A stretch of DNA of 64,000 nucleotides, taken from an uncultured Halobacteriovorax sp. Lineage in GTDB: Bacteria > Bdellovibrionota > Bacteriovoracia > Bacteriovoracales > Bacteriovoracaceae. Below the pieces are notes generated by a model. That model did no database searches, was not told where the DNA came from, and saw nothing but the letters and a program-made list of their open reading frames with translations. The stretch is taken from positions 1-64,000 of the forward strand of contig CAJXVS010000001.1 in the NCBI GenBank assembly GCA_913061265.1. Direction: 5' to 3'. Positions 12,168 through 20,568 of the stretch are shown one piece after another. A program made the translations under genes and the position numbers. Numbering within the stretch: the stretch's first letter is position 1; each line of letters opens with the position of its first letter.

Positions 12168-13670
12168 TTAGTGAAAGTCGGGTGTATTGCCGATTATTTC
12201 AAGGTCTTCGAAATTGTTCTTGAGCTCGTACTCGTCGTAGATTCGACCATCAAAGATATATCTAAGGATGACTACGAAAAGGAGAAGGAAGCAAGAAAAG
12301 AAGATCGAGACAAAGATCATCTTTGTTTTAGCAATCTTCTTATAGCTAGAGAGCTCTGATTGAAAATTGTCAAAAAGAAGATCTGAGACAATTGTTGATT
12401 CAGCAAGGTTAAGCTGAACAAGCTTTTGTTCTAGGAGCTTGATTAATTGAAGATTTGGATCATGTTCCTTTAACCTAATATCAATCTCTGCTGCACTTTT
12501 AACGGCAGTTTCTAATTCCTTATTTAAGTTACTAAACTCTACCTTAGTCTTACTAAATTGCTTTCTAGAGACCTTATAATCATGTTCGGTATTCATTTGC
12601 TTATTTTCTTTGCTCACTGCAAAACGCTCATTCTGAGCAGCTGTATCGACGTTTCCGATAGAAGCAAGACGTCTTTCATTTACTACTAACTCAGTCTTTA
12701 ATTTTTTAATAATATTAGTTCCAGAGACTTCTTCAGTGCCAAATGATGTTTTAATACTAGCGATGTCTTCTCTTAATTGGCGGTTTTTTTCTTTTAATTT
12801 TTTGGCCTCTGCCACTTTAAAAAGCTCATTATTCGAAGACTTATTTGATTTAGACAAAGTCTCTCTTGTCTGAGACCTTTCAGTTTCCAATTTGTTTAAC
12901 TTTGTTCTATCTGAGTAATAAATTCTTCTTATCTCATCAGCTCTGTCTTTTAATGCGTCAATTCGCACCATTAGACTGGCTTTCTTATCAACCATTTTTT
13001 TGATCTTTTCAATGTTAACTTCTTCTTTCTTTTTAGAAAGGAGCTCTTTAGAGATCTTAACTTGAGAAGTTACAAAATACCGAATCTGACCAAGTCGGTC
13101 TTTGTCTATTGATTTAGAAACAATTTTAACCAGAGACTCTGTTGTAAAGTGATCAAGAGTTCTTACTATCAAATGGTAACGGTCAATAATATTAGTATCC
13201 ATTTTAACTGAATAAAAGCTTCCTATAATTCTTGCAATCCTATCTCGCCGACATTCCTTACTATCCCCACATGAGTTAAAGATCTCATCATAAGACTTCA
13301 TATCCCTTGTTCCTACGGAATTGAAGTTCATTTTTTTAATATCAGGTGTATTTAAAAGTTCATCTGCAATTTTATACTGGAAATCGACAGAGGTTCCGTA
13401 TGAGATAATTTCTGTTGGGTCTAGCTTTGATGTCTTTTCACCTAGCATTGAGAAGATCATGCTTGTTGGTGAATTAGAGCCTTCATTTACATATTTAAAA
13501 CCAACTTCTCCACTATAGATTGTGTTCTGTCCGAGAAAAATGCTAATCGAGTAAATGGCAGCTATGGCCGGTACCGAAATAGAGAGAAACTTGTAGCGCT
13601 TTATCAATTTCCATAAAAAAGGAAAGTTAATAATCGAAGTCTCATTTAAAACAATATTTAGTTTTTTCAT
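12168..13670 (-). CDS. Wzz/GumC-like chain-length determinant (PCP family)
   Basis: I chose ATG 13670, giving 500 aa, because it overlaps the previous stop as ATGA and has GGAGG at proper spacing; an in-frame GTG at 13688 is unlikely. A first membrane helix lies near residues 27-45 (FLSISVPAIAAIYSISIFLG), a second near the C-terminus (MIFVSIFFSCFLLLFVVILRY), and between them is a long periplasmic coiled coil. This is the polysaccharide co-polymerase layout. The two upstream genes encode BY-kinase-like proteins that would be its cytoplasmic partners. Confidence 0.85.
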   Translation of the reverse strand: MKKLNIVLNETSIINFPFLWKLIKRYKFLSISVPAIAAIYSISIFLGQNTIYSGEVGFKYVNEGSNSPTSMIFSMLGEKTSKLDPTEIISYGTSVDFQYKIADELLNTPDIKKMNFNSVGTRDMKSYDEIFNSCGDSKECRRDRIARIIGSFYSVKMDTNIIDRYHLIVRTLDHFTTESLVKIVSKSIDKDRLGQIRYFVTSQVKISKELLSKKKEEVNIEKIKKMVDKKASLMVRIDALKDRADEIRRIYYSDRTKLNKLETERSQTRETLSKSNKSSNNELFKVAEAKKLKEKNRQLREDIASIKTSFGTEEVSGTNIIKKLKTELVVNERRLASIGNVDTAAQNERFAVSKENKQMNTEHDYKVSRKQFSKTKVEFSNLNKELETAVKSAAEIDIRLKEHDPNLQLIKLLEQKLVQLNLAESTIVSDLLFDNFQSELSSYKKIAKTKMIFVSIFFSCFLLLFVVILRYIFDGRIYDEYELKNNFEDLEIIGNTPDFH

Positions 13671-14497
13671 CCAAAGATCCTCCACCAAGGTTTTTCATTT
13701 TTCCCTTTAGCGTCCTCTATTATTTCTTTTTGTTTGGTATCAAATAGTAATCCTTTTAAATTTATCCCATAGCCCATGAAGAAGTTCTTAATTTCTTTGA
13801 TATCCCCAGAATTACTTAGAGATTGAGCAACAATAATTGAAAGGCTTTCAAACTTCATAATAACTGGAAAGTATTTTTCAGAATCTTTCTTTATCTTTGC
13901 TAAGTCAGGAACATCCCAAAAGATGATGTCATATTCATCTACAAGTGAATCAAACACTTCTTCATAGCTAAGAGTGGCTTCATTATTTGAGATTTTTAAT
14001 AGTTCGTCTAAGTCAAAAAAATCAAAATGTTGATAGAAGCTATAGACTGTGCAAGGCTCTTCATTGTCCCCTAGCTCTAGCTTTGATTCCTTTGAGATTG
14101 AAACGATTTCTTTAAAAGCCCCATTCGTGAGGTTGTCAGAAACTATTCCAATTTTAACATCTTCTTTGTGATCAAAAAAGCTCGCAAGTCCTAAGATACT
14201 ATTTTGCTGACTGGCCTGATATCCAGTGGAGCCAACAGCAAAAGACTTAACTCCTCTTTTATAATCATCGTAAAAGCTTGAACCGATCTTAAACAGTTCG
14301 TGATGATTACTAACTTTATAAAAATATCGATTTGATCTTTTCTGTGTTTCTACTTTCTCTTTAACGGGCTCTTCTGGCCTTAAAAGCTCTGGCTTAGGGA
14401 CCCCAACCTTCGATGAAGGAATATCTAAAACAGCTACCTCTTCCTTTTCTTTGAAAGAACCTTCAGCATCTTTGAATTTTAGTTTCAAACCTGCCAT
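13667..14497 (-). CDS. BY-kinase-like (Wzc/CpsD C-domain) protein without P-loop
   Basis: The 276-aa protein keeps the fold landmarks of the MinD-like/BY-kinase family, including EYDIIFWDVPDL, equivalent to the Walker A' / B region (YDxVxxDtPP) of CpsD and Wzc. Where family members have GEGKSxxAxNLA, it has GSTGYQASQQNSILGLASFF with no GKS/T. It also lacks a tyrosine cluster at the C-terminus. It is coupled to the Wzz-like gene by ATGA. The likely role is a structural or regulatory partner of that protein rather than an active kinase. Confidence 0.7.
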   Translation of the reverse strand: MAGLKLKFKDAEGSFKEKEEVAVLDIPSSKVGVPKPELLRPEEPVKEKVETQKRSNRYFYKVSNHHELFKIGSSFYDDYKRGVKSFAVGSTGYQASQQNSILGLASFFDHKEDVKIGIVSDNLTNGAFKEIVSISKESKLELGDNEEPCTVYSFYQHFDFFDLDELLKISNNEATLSYEEVFDSLVDEYDIIFWDVPDLAKIKKDSEKYFPVIMKFESLSIIVAQSLSNSGDIKEIKNFFMGYGINLKGLLFDTKQKEIIEDAKGKNEKPWWRIFG

Positions 14498-14500
14498 GTC

Positions 14501-15907
14501 TTAAGCGCCCTTCTTCAATTTTGATTCTTTTTCATCTGGATTATAAAGAAGCCCTTTAATTTCGACCTGGTACCTTTTGTAATACCCGACAAGATCATTA
14601 ACTTCCTGAATTCTTGTTTTATCTTTTGCTACAATTAATGAAACACTATCTAGTGAACGAATAATTGGAAAATAGATTTCTTTTTGAGCGTCAAGAACAG
14701 ACACTTCTGGCATATCCCATAGGATCAGATCGTAACTATCGACAAGAAAGTCTATAAAGTCTTCAAAATCAAATGTTCTAATCTTTCTTGCGATCTTTTT
14801 TAAATGATCAAAGTCTAATAACTCTATCCCATCAGAAATACCAACTTCGTAAGTAAGCTCTTCATCAAATACTTGACGAGTTTCTTTCTCATCTATTTCC
14901 ATGTACTCATAGTAAAATGAATGTGCCATTCCCTCTGAAACAATTAGAGTTTTTACATCTGTATGGTAATTAAAGAAAGTTGAGACTCCGAAGACGGTCT
15001 TTTGTCTTATCAAATCTAAGTCATAAGAGCTAAAGGCAAAGCTTTTCAATCCCTCTTTAAAATCTTTTAGGTATTGGCTACCTGTTTTAAAAAGTTCTAC
15101 ATGATCTTTGGCCTTATAATAGAAACCGTTATGCTGTTTTCCACGTTTCTTAGAAAGTGTATGTTTTTCATAAGAGAGTTTTTTAAGTTCTTGCTCCGTT
15201 TTAGGTGCTGATTTCTCAAACTCTTCAATATTTTCGTTAATTTCATTTTCTGTTTTATCGGACTCAGTGAATTTAGATTTAAAAACAAACTTACTTTCAC
15301 TTTTTTTCTCTATTTTACTATTAAAGTCTAAATGGCTTTCTTCTTCGTTGTTTTTGTTCTTCTTCCCTTTTAATTCAGGAATAGGGTTAAAGAAGTCACC
15401 GTTAAGGTCTTTTTCAATTTCATAGAGGTTAATTTCGATGCCTTTAGATTTAAAGGCCTCTTGCTCCTCAGTTAACTGTTCTAGCTCACTTCTTCTTTTA
15501 TAGTTAAACTTTTTATATTTTTGTTCTTCAACTTCACTAGGTTTTTCATTATCGTAAAGAAACTCAACTCTATTCGCTTCTTCAACTCCGAATTTTTCGA
15601 CGACTACTTTTCTAATCCCCGTATTGTTTTTCATAAAGTCTGTAAGATCTCTTGGGTCTACATTCCTTACTTCATTATCCTTGAACACTGTTATGTTAGT
15701 GACCTCTGGTTGAGATTTCTCTTCTTCCGTAAGCTTCTTCATAACCATTTCTGATTCAGAGTATTCTGACTTTACGGAAAAGTTCTCAAGAGGATCATTG
15801 CCCTCTTCTAAGACTTCATTCTTACTCCTAGACTCTGGACGCTTATACGAATCCTCGTCTACGATGATAAAGTTTTGTGAATCTTTTTTCTTTGCACTAT
15901 TTCCCAT
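14501..15907 (-). CDS. large BY-kinase-like protein without P-loop, long acidic N-terminus
   Basis: From ATG 15907 the protein is 468 aa (the open frame runs upstream to 15991 but that part looks non-coding). Residues 1 to about 270 are highly charged, low complexity and probably disordered. The C-terminal 200 aa is a paralogue of the protein encoded at 13667-14497, with shared FYYKAKDHVELFKTGSQY, YDLILWDMPEVS and GLLYNP/GLLFDT motifs. Like its paralogue it has no Walker A motif. The stop lies 3 nt before the next ATG. It heads the minus-strand co-polymerase/polymerase genes. Confidence 0.7.
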   Translation of the reverse strand: MGNSAKKKDSQNFIIVDEDSYKRPESRSKNEVLEEGNDPLENFSVKSEYSESEMVMKKLTEEEKSQPEVTNITVFKDNEVRNVDPRDLTDFMKNNTGIRKVVVEKFGVEEANRVEFLYDNEKPSEVEEQKYKKFNYKRRSELEQLTEEQEAFKSKGIEINLYEIEKDLNGDFFNPIPELKGKKNKNNEEESHLDFNSKIEKKSESKFVFKSKFTESDKTENEINENIEEFEKSAPKTEQELKKLSYEKHTLSKKRGKQHNGFYYKAKDHVELFKTGSQYLKDFKEGLKSFAFSSYDLDLIRQKTVFGVSTFFNYHTDVKTLIVSEGMAHSFYYEYMEIDEKETRQVFDEELTYEVGISDGIELLDFDHLKKIARKIRTFDFEDFIDFLVDSYDLILWDMPEVSVLDAQKEIYFPIIRSLDSVSLIVAKDKTRIQEVNDLVGYYKRYQVEIKGLLYNPDEKESKLKKGA

Positions 15908-16075
15908 AAATTCTTTTGAGCCCAAAAAAAGGGCACACCTTGCATTACTTTTCGACAGGTTGAGAAAAAAAATTAACCTTCTATAGTACAATTGTGAGGG
16001 GAAAATATTACTAGGGCGATGAACTTTTCTAGATATGTCTGTAACTACCCAGAAAAGCTCACTTCTTTAGGAAAA

Positions 16076-18495: not shown

Positions 18496-19560
18496 CTAAA
18501 AAGTTTTAAATTGTTCAGAGAAACGTAAGTCAGCACTATGGAGATGCCTGATATCGTCGATGTGATACCTCATCATAACCAAGCGATCGAGCCCTAGGCC
18601 AAAAGCAAATCCGTTGAATTCATCTGGATCTATTCCACCAGAGCGTAAAACATTTGGATGAACCATTCCGCACGGAAGAAGCTCAACCCATCCTACTTGC
18701 TTACAAACACTACAACCGTTGCCCTTACAAATAAGGCATTTAATATCAAGTTCAAAACCAGGTTCAACAAAAGGAAAGAAGCCAGGTCTTAATCTTACTT
18801 CAACTTCTTTTTTGAATATTTCACTAAGAAGAGACTTCATAAAATAGATAAGGTTAGAGACGGAAATATTCTTCCCGACCATCATCCCTTCTAATTGATG
18901 AAAGACCATCTCGTGACTTGCATCAGTTCTTTCACAACGGAAGACTTTTCCAGGAGCGATAAACCTAAAGGGAGGCTTACGAGACATCATCCCTCTTACT
19001 TGGATGGTACTTGTGTGTGTTCTTAGTAAGTATTTCTTTTCATCTGTCTTAGTATGAGGGTCATGAAACCAAAAGGTATCTTGCATATCACGGGCAGGAT
19101 GATCATCAGGAATATTAAGCGCTTCGAAGTTATGAAATTCATCTTCAATATGGGGACCGTCTAAAATATCAAATCCCATAGAAAGGAAGATATCTTCAAT
19201 TTCATTTTGAATGATCGTTACCGGATGAATTCCGCCATGTCTTGAATTAGAGGCCATAACTGAGTCAGTTAAACTTAGGTCTCTTTTTTGAGCTGCAAGT
19301 TTCTCATTGATGGCCTCAACTTCAATTCTATTCAATTTTTCATTTATTAAGTCTTGAATCTTATTTTTTACTTCATTGGCAGCAGGGCCAAGCTCTTTTT
19401 TTTCCTCAGGCGTACAATCTCTTAGGCCTGCGAGAATCTTTGAAATGGCACCTTTCTTTCCAAGGTACTCAGATTTTAGATTGAGAATATCGGCTTCTTT
19501 ACTGAGGCTTTCTAATGATGATTTAAATTCTAAGAACAGTTTATCTAACTTTTCTAACAC
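18496..19560 (-). CDS. pheS: phenylalanyl-tRNA synthetase alpha subunit
   Basis: The 354-aa protein has the N-terminal coiled-coil arm and the class II motifs: DDHPARDMQDTFW (motif 1 region), FRCERTDASHEMVFHQLEG (motif 2) and GFAFGLGLDRLVMMRY (motif 3). It also retains the zinc-type CLICKGNGCSVCKQVGW cysteines found in some bacterial PheS. The start is GTG 19560 with a strong purine-rich SD (GGGGAG). The gene follows a strong terminator of the upstream RNA, so its promoter must lie within 19561-19600. Confidence 0.97.
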   Translation of the reverse strand: MLEKLDKLFLEFKSSLESLSKEADILNLKSEYLGKKGAISKILAGLRDCTPEEKKELGPAANEVKNKIQDLINEKLNRIEVEAINEKLAAQKRDLSLTDSVMASNSRHGGIHPVTIIQNEIEDIFLSMGFDILDGPHIEDEFHNFEALNIPDDHPARDMQDTFWFHDPHTKTDEKKYLLRTHTSTIQVRGMMSRKPPFRFIAPGKVFRCERTDASHEMVFHQLEGMMVGKNISVSNLIYFMKSLLSEIFKKEVEVRLRPGFFPFVEPGFELDIKCLICKGNGCSVCKQVGWVELLPCGMVHPNVLRSGGIDPDEFNGFAFGLGLDRLVMMRYHIDDIRHLHSADLRFSEQFKTF

Positions 19561-19597
19561 GGGGCTCCCCTTCCTTATAGATGCCCGTTATATTGAC

Positions 19598-19626
19598 AAA
19601 AAAAAAGGGGATGAACAAGCATCCCC
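19598..19626 (-). terminator. intrinsic terminator of the RNA upstream of pheS
   Basis: The minus strand has a perfect 7-bp GC-rich stem (GGGGATG / CATCCCC, 6-nt loop) followed by nine T residues (19598-19606). This is a textbook Rho-independent terminator for transcripts coming from 20015 leftwards. Confidence 0.9.
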
Positions 19627-20015
19627 CGAATATAAATCTATACTGATAGTTAGAATTTTTCACGCTCAATGGCGTTTCGTCCCGGGTGTTCTACGGCACT
19701 TGTGAAAAAACACTCCTGGTTAAGCAAGCAAGTTTCACCGGCTATCCATGAACTCCGTAATGGATAATTTTTTTTGAATGTCTAAAGTAAAGCTACGGAC
19801 CCAAGTTCCTCCCAAAGACTCTCACCCTCCCTCCAAGAATCGCTCACCACGACTCTTGACCCGTTCCGTACCTGGCAATGCCAGCAAGGGGGCGGCCTTC
19901 TCCGCTACGGCAACCATCAACCCATCTGCAAAGCATTACGGGTGGCGGCTTTGTTCGAGTAGACTTTCGTACAACTCTCACCTTTTCCACGGGGTTTCTT
20001 AAGACTAATTTTAAC
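19598..20015 (-). ncRNA. unidentified structured RNA of about 0.4 kb
   Basis: No protein gene fits 19561-20010. The minus strand has a perfect TATAAT at 20023-20028 and ends in a strong terminator at 19598-19626, giving a discrete transcript near 418 nt. It is GC-richer than its surroundings and rich in hairpins: CAAAGC/GCTTTG, CTGGC-ATT-GCCAG inside CCGTA/TACGG, CAAGAGTCG/CGATTCTTG, TATCCAT/ATGGATA and ACGC/GCGT. The size fits RNase P RNA or tmRNA, but the universal RNase P sequence GAGGAAAGTCC and ACAGAA are absent, as are the tmRNA T-loop and a plausible tag frame. I do not recognise the family. It could be an independent sRNA/ribozyme or a long pheST leader with attenuation. Confidence 0.7.
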
Positions 20016-20568
20016 GCCGAGTATTATATGAATCAAGCTTTTGTAGCTTAAGCGTTTCATGAAGTTCGATTCTTGTGTGATTAAAGAAACTTATGACCTC
20101 AATTTCTTTGTAATCAGGATAGGTCCATTCTAGAGGCGAATAGGAGCCAGAAATGTATAAGAGGTTTAAATCAGCGTAGACACCCTGACCTAGGTAGGGC
20201 CTGTGACCATAAATCTTGCCAGTTCCTAGGATTATGTTCTCTAAGGTCATCAGTCCTGGATCAATATTGATATGCCTGCCTTTTGTTTTACGGTTATCTT
20301 CTTCGGCGACGGCCCAAAGCTTAGCTTCGACAAGGACTTCTCTCTCATAGAGCTTTTTAGAGACGACGAGGAGCCTTTTTAAGCTTTCCTTATCACCCAT
20401 CTCTTTAGAGTAATACTCGATCATGGGATTATGAGTTGGGCTAAAGACATCAGCTTCTCCCCATTTACTCTCCCAAAGCTTTAAGGCCTCGTCTTGATTC
20501 ATTAATTCTGTATTGAAGAGAAGGCTAGCAAAGAGAAAGCCTGGTGGTGGTAGAAAAAGGGAGCTCAT
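20011..20568 (-). CDS. DUF4416 family protein
   Basis: The 185-aa protein carries the DUF4416 signatures GRHINIDPGLMTLENIIL, HRPYLGQGVYADLNLLY and EWTYPDYKEIEVISFFN. The function of the family is unknown; it is common in Deltaproteobacteria and related phyla. Its start overlaps the heptose-kinase stop by 4 nt, so it is in one operon with it. An internal Met (residue 23, MNQDEALKLWE) is an alternative start, because the first 22 residues are not typical of the family. Confidence 0.85.
   Translation of the reverse strand: MSSLFLPPPGFLFASLLFNTELMNQDEALKLWESKWGEADVFSPTHNPMIEYYSKEMGDKESLKRLLVVSKKLYEREVLVEAKLWAVAEEDNRKTKGRHINIDPGLMTLENIILGTGKIYGHRPYLGQGVYADLNLLYISGSYSPLEWTYPDYKEIEVISFFNHTRIELHETLKLQKLDSYNTRR
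20023..20028 (-). promoter_or_regulatory. -10 element for the unidentified RNA
   Basis: A perfect TATAAT on the minus strand lies inside the last codons of the DUF4416 gene and should start transcription near 20015. The matching -35 (TTAAGC with 17-bp spacing) is weak. Confidence 0.55.

Follow-up and report, generated by a model that had tools for sequence, protein, structure and literature searches.

A variant c-di-GMP-I-type aptamer in a probably free-standing RNA of Halobacteriovorax and its relatives, with a conserved Shine-Dalgarno sequence and a candidate micro-ORF

A discrete RNA element of ~418 nt is present on the minus strand (~20016 to 19598) of the 64,000-nucleotide stretch of uncultured Halobacteriovorax sp. 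DNA analysed here (contig CAJXVS010000001.1, positions 1 to 64,000; hereafter the window), and its 5' part (19902-19996) is very probably a c-di-GMP-I-type (GEMM-I) aptamer. Comparison among homologs supports this aptamer with its ligand contacts intact, two downstream helices (P5 and P6), a GGAGG sequence with a candidate micro-ORF, a terminator and partial independence from the neighboring gene pheS. We therefore lean, on comparative grounds, toward reading the element as a merRNA-like, free-standing RNA that runs from its own promoter to its own terminator and would act as a c-di-GMP receptor. All features of the element described below are on the minus strand.

The element lies between a DUF4416 gene (20011-20568) and pheS (18496-19560), with an hldE-like sugar kinase gene beyond the former; the usual place of this RNA is between hldE and pheS. 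The 3' end of the DUF4416 gene overlaps the promoter and the start of the RNA, and no intact copy of this gene is found at the corresponding place in one relative (G001). As originally predicted, the element has a TATAAT of its own (20023-20028, expected start ~20016) and a terminator (19598-19630), is GC-richer than its surroundings (47% vs. 38% in the flanks, the 99.7th percentile of equal windows) and fits no protein, its sole, spurious plus-strand ORF having no match in a Pfam search. The terminator, GGGGATG-CTTGTT-CATCCCC followed by nine U, had been called perfect but is near-perfect, and the -35 sequence paired with the TATAAT is weak (TTAAGC, ~20046-20051). In the largest sister genus, promoters resembling TTGAC[AT]-N17-TAT[TAG]CT precede the aptamer by 32-38 nt, and a conserved sigma-70 promoter is clear in part of the RNA family only. 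A DNA-similarity search in phages gave no match to the element. Immediately 5' of the GTG start of pheS, a GGGC...GCCC hairpin (19559-19587) that is near-identical in three species of the genus surrounds the pheS Shine-Dalgarno sequence and could hide the ribosome site. Elsewhere in the window (13667-15991), two adjacent minus-strand ORFs of 276 and 496 aa have similar C-terminal halves and are apparently a tandem duplicate.

A DNA search recovered the RNA from two other members of its genus; identity to the copy in another species is 81%. A covariance model built from six sequences (R1) had matches, some of them weak, in 48 of the 129 genomes of the class. A model built from 44 sequences (R2) places the RNA, with scores of 80-165 bits, in 44 of these 129 genomes and 22 of 48 genera, with no other genome of the class among the matches listed. 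Among the named carriers are Halobacteriovorax sp. SP2999 and the cultured strain Bacteriovorax sp. DB6_IX, in which the RNA is located at NZ_AUNJ01000424.1:8724-8931 (L119). In the phylum-wide search (369 genomes), the other clear members were confined to two genomes of family f24 (72 and 56 bits), although absence elsewhere is only tentative because large searches apply strict filters. R2 matches in two genomes (G161 and G182) were discounted as apparent coding sequence, and those in family f8 are queE-type riboswitches and not members of the RNA family.

Covariation analysis of the 44 homologs, which had been proposed as a check, revealed strongly covarying helices. In 91% of cells bases were paired, and changes on both sides of a pair numbered 223 vs. 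66 in shuffles, or 295 vs. 89 with a refitted model; the alignments fitted to the models (A4 and A5) are biased in favor of their structures. Covariation of P2, P3, P5 and P6 was far above both shuffled and slid controls. The folding energy of the single sequence is no better than that of shuffles (z = +0.97) and thus lends no support, so that we accept the structure on the comparative evidence.

The original prediction had noted a weak resemblance of the 5' region to a c-di-GMP-I riboswitch, which proved right in kind. Searching relatives with the Rfam model RF01051 produced matches in G001, G002, G008, G015 and G023 (24-36.5 bits) that coincide precisely with the 5' part of each RNA homolog, the same place as the aptamer in the window. 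The Rfam cut-off (35 bits) was reached by one of 20 homologous loci tested, and the window has no such match; at gathering level the Rfam search returned nothing in the whole window, neither RNase P nor tmRNA but also not c-di-GMP-I. The L20 leader and PYLIS_3 matches seen in the stretch at E 5 are chance near-misses, the former sitting on the terminator.

Bases equivalent to G20, G21, C46, A47, A48, C92 and C93 are invariant in 44 of 44 homologs. These include the c-di-GMP-I ligand contacts G20, A47 and C92 (as listed in PMC4744006), which correspond here to the G at 19982 (position checked), the A of the C46 and A47 pair of positions (19952-19953) and the first of C92 and C93 (19909-19910); the A47 and C92 portions of the aptamer had been singled out earlier as the AACAAAGCC and GGTTGCCG pieces. 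The pairs flanking the pocket are kept as well, with G21-C46 being GC in all 44 and 22-45 covarying (CG 25, UA 15, UG 4). Each of the five outer pairs of P2 (19957-19977) shows both-side changes, and this hairpin carries a GAAA loop, of the GNRA type found in RF01051, in nearly all homologs; the P3 arm (19912-19950) also covaries. A CCUAAG/UAUGG-like P3 receptor, into which the P2 loop might dock, is seen in many homologs but is absent from the window's genus. P1 is short (~4 bp) and bulged.

The aptamer departs from RF01051 at the interhelical C44-G83 pair, a universally conserved C-G in the c-di-GMP-I class (PMC4744006). The equivalent of C44 is A (19955 in the window) in 44 of 44 homologs, and the first base of the P3 bulge, the source of G83, is U in 43 of 44; by our reading of the sequences, the two f24 members retain C at position 44. 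These bases are consistent with a swapped A-U interhelical pair, which would represent one fixed double change and not repeated covariation. The window RNA also has a shorter, 2x2 internal loop in P2 and a sub-cut-off Rfam score, and nine loci of the family have no regulated gene downstream. With its interhelical pair replaced and its Rfam score in the window too low, the aptamer is a variant and not a textbook member of the class.

Downstream of the aptamer, P5 is formed by a 5' strand (19886-19892; both-side changes in six pairs) and a 3' strand (19825-19834) whose covariation comes from the refitted model. The same domain contains a variable hairpin (CUGGC..GCCAG, 19872-19884), a distal ACGGGUC (19858-19864), the covarying P6 hairpin (GAGUCG-UGGUGAG-CGAUUC, 19837-19855) with its conserved UGGYGAG loop and, further on, a conserved GACAUUCA motif (19775-19782; 31 of 44 homologs vs. 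5.5% in shuffles). The 5' strand of the RNA (CCCCGU, 19989-19994) has two complements, namely the P1 3' strand (19902-19905) and the distal ACGGGUC, the latter being its potential partner or competitor. Complementarity of the distal ACGGGUC to the 5' ACCCGU is high relative to shuffles (z = 11 over 25 representatives), and the same 5'-strand bases also match the P1 3' strand (z = 4.6), so that the two pairings are mutually exclusive. Riboswitch platforms typically have such exclusive pairings. For most of 20 representatives, ligand-free ensembles favored the distal helix as soon as transcription had passed it; these ensembles are of secondary structure, and P5 and the distal helix together would form a pseudoknot. 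We put the modelled two-state switch between P1 and the distal helix at even chances, with c-di-GMP possibly shifting the balance between them. Sequestration of GGAGG by the P5 3' strand (R1 helices 8-9) was rejected in an unfitted comparison (z = 1.1 vs. 2.9 for the upstream P5 pairing).

This GGAGG (19808-19812) is a conserved Shine-Dalgarno sequence at a fixed position in nearly all members, and is followed by a candidate micro-ORF, UUG GGU CCG UAG in the window (19793-19804) and usually UUG GGN CCN UAR in the family. In 16 of 25 genera a start codon (UUG or AUG) lies 3-8 nt after GGAGG and is followed by two sense codons and then a stop, compared with 0.7 in shuffles, a test that demonstrates conservation and not coding; the micro-ORF is absent or different in 6-9 of the 25. 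Coding is instead suggested by four other features. Entropies are maximal at third codon positions (1.78, 1.45 and 0.98), start (AUG/UUG) and stop (UAA/UAG/UGA) codons interchange among homologs, the frame is retained despite loss of CC in three loci (L058, L067 and L094), and the f24 members have AUG GAG UAG. We thus consider it somewhat probable, judging from these patterns, that the micro-ORF is translated. The sequence after GGAGG might instead be a structural motif of the RNA, a less probable but serious alternative. In some genera GGRYCC can pair with the distal GGGUC, the best cases being the large genus and L077, but this pairing is weak overall (z = 2.8), and we rejected pairing with ACGGGUC as a general reason for conservation of the micro-ORF; a purely structural motif also fits poorly with the third-position entropy peak, the exchange of starts and stops, the frame kept without CC and the f24 sequence. 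A second GGAGG-like site further down (19712-19719 in the window) is also at odds with this alternative, never carrying such a micro-ORF (0 of 27). Comparably small minigenes, e.g. mg2 in axe-txe (PMC8708949), likewise combine a strong Shine-Dalgarno sequence with a frame that stops after two or three codons, but these known regulators affect a downstream gene in cis, whereas RNAs of the window type require none.

The ligand of the aptamer is probably c-di-GMP itself, given the conserved pocket. The changed interhelical pair and the shorter P2 internal loop might point to something else, such as another cyclic dinucleotide, but this seems improbable with A47 and C92 intact and a G at position 20 in all 44 homologs. 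Variants of the cGAMP type have A at position 20.

Of 44 scannable loci, 32 have a strong terminator 300-540 nt away from the start of the aptamer, vs. none of the 44 when shuffled, and pheS is directly downstream in 32 of 42 informative loci. The RNA might thus be a cis-acting pheST leader, with terminator read-through governed by c-di-GMP or some other signal; the terminator sits between RNA and gene, 38 nt before pheS. However, the gene downstream is convergent in nine loci of two families, including both f24 genomes (L056, L058, L084, L089, L090, L093, L096, L191 and L192), and other, unrelated genes follow the RNA in L077 and L083, such that the RNA is not simply a pheS leader and a universal leader role is excluded. 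In a further, rearranged locus (L085, in G020) the RNA is divergent from pheS, which is on the other strand. The Rfam search detected no T-box or other leader, and the micro-ORF contains no Phe codons, leaving a leader an unlikely explanation. We conclude that the RNA is very likely free-standing, although it may have a pheS-linked role where pheS is directly downstream. Only size and GC content would suggest a housekeeping RNA, whether a divergent RNase P, a tmRNA or another, and this reading can be dismissed; the original prediction had already noted that RNase P and tmRNA conserved sequences are missing. The RNase P RNA of this genome (RF00010) is elsewhere (C3:165621-165936, 232.6 bits), even a search at E 5 gives no Rfam match of such kind in the stretch, and ARAGORN finds no tmRNA in the window and no tRNA at the element.

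The closest known counterpart in kind is merRNA of Bdellovibrio bacteriovorus HD100, an attack-phase-specific, massively expressed RNA reported not to be conserved outside the Bdellovibrio lineage and to have no conserved ORF downstream of its riboswitch (PMC3627812). Both are free-standing RNAs of ~420-445 nt with a c-di-GMP-I aptamer, from predatory relatives of one phylum, and both have GGAGG and a short ORF. In contrast, the aptamer is at the 5' end of the window RNA but 234 nt inside the 445-nt merRNA (RF01051 match in G154, identified as HD100 by coordinate match to PMC3627812), and the ORF follows the aptamer with two sense codons in the former but precedes it with 12-16 codons in the latter. 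R2 did not match the JSS merRNA locus (L050) at E 0.1, HD100 is absent from the phylum-wide R2 matches, and no motif common to the two RNAs outside the aptamer was seen by eye. The suggested relation to the attack-phase RNA thus applies to the type of RNA but not to its layout: the window RNA is merRNA-like in kind, and homology is unsupported. An abundant or trans-acting role like that of merRNA, argued by analogy, has slightly less than an even chance.

Although reported as non-coding, merRNA itself has a Shine-Dalgarno sequence and a conserved 12-16-codon ORF upstream of its aptamer, e.g. MKHRIHDHHDEPPK and, in HD100, MRTHEHHDDELK, each followed by a stop, with differences mostly synonymous and at H, D and P codons (L227 (HD100), L202, L205, L207, L208, L211-L213, L215, L216, L218, L031, L220-L223, L226, L231, L232 and L234). 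Canonical c-di-GMP-I aptamers also occur in other Bdellovibrionota (L030, L052, L193, L194 and L195). The majority immediately precede a reading frame resembling queE (7-carboxy-7-deazaguanine synthase), which is an atypical target for riboswitches of this class. These queE-type riboswitches share the aptamer class with the window RNA and give weak R2 matches (23-27 bits; L193-L195), but they show no GGAGG/micro-ORF domain downstream and have a queE-like start close by in L030, L052, L194 and L195.

If the RNA is indeed a c-di-GMP receptor, binding would stabilize P1 and so bar the 5' CCCGU strand from pairing with the distal ACGGGUC, whereas the distal helix would form without ligand. This two-state change might alter the downstream domain and hence ribosome access to GGAGG and the micro-ORF, which could set the stability of the RNA or its hold on the ribosome, while the RNA meanwhile binds c-di-GMP or signals in trans. 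More speculatively, and with odds clearly against it, predatory Bdellovibrionota might possess a class of free-standing c-di-GMP receptor RNAs with ligand-gated ribosome loading on an ultrashort ORF and an aptamer fold maintained by a swapped interhelical pair. The ORF would then be M-G/D-P-stop in Bacteriovoracia and a 12-16-codon peptide in Bdellovibrio merRNA, and the output would be the RNA or a stalled-ribosome state and not a regulated downstream gene. Our comparisons suggest that free-standing c-di-GMP aptamer RNAs exist in Bacteriovoracia too, in a form overlooked by Rfam, and that both these RNAs and merRNA carry conserved translation signals. The RNA family also offers a naturally occurring alternative to a tertiary pair much studied in riboswitches, and the long-standing question of whether such RNAs serve as a c-di-GMP store or as a regulator becomes testable by simple mutations.
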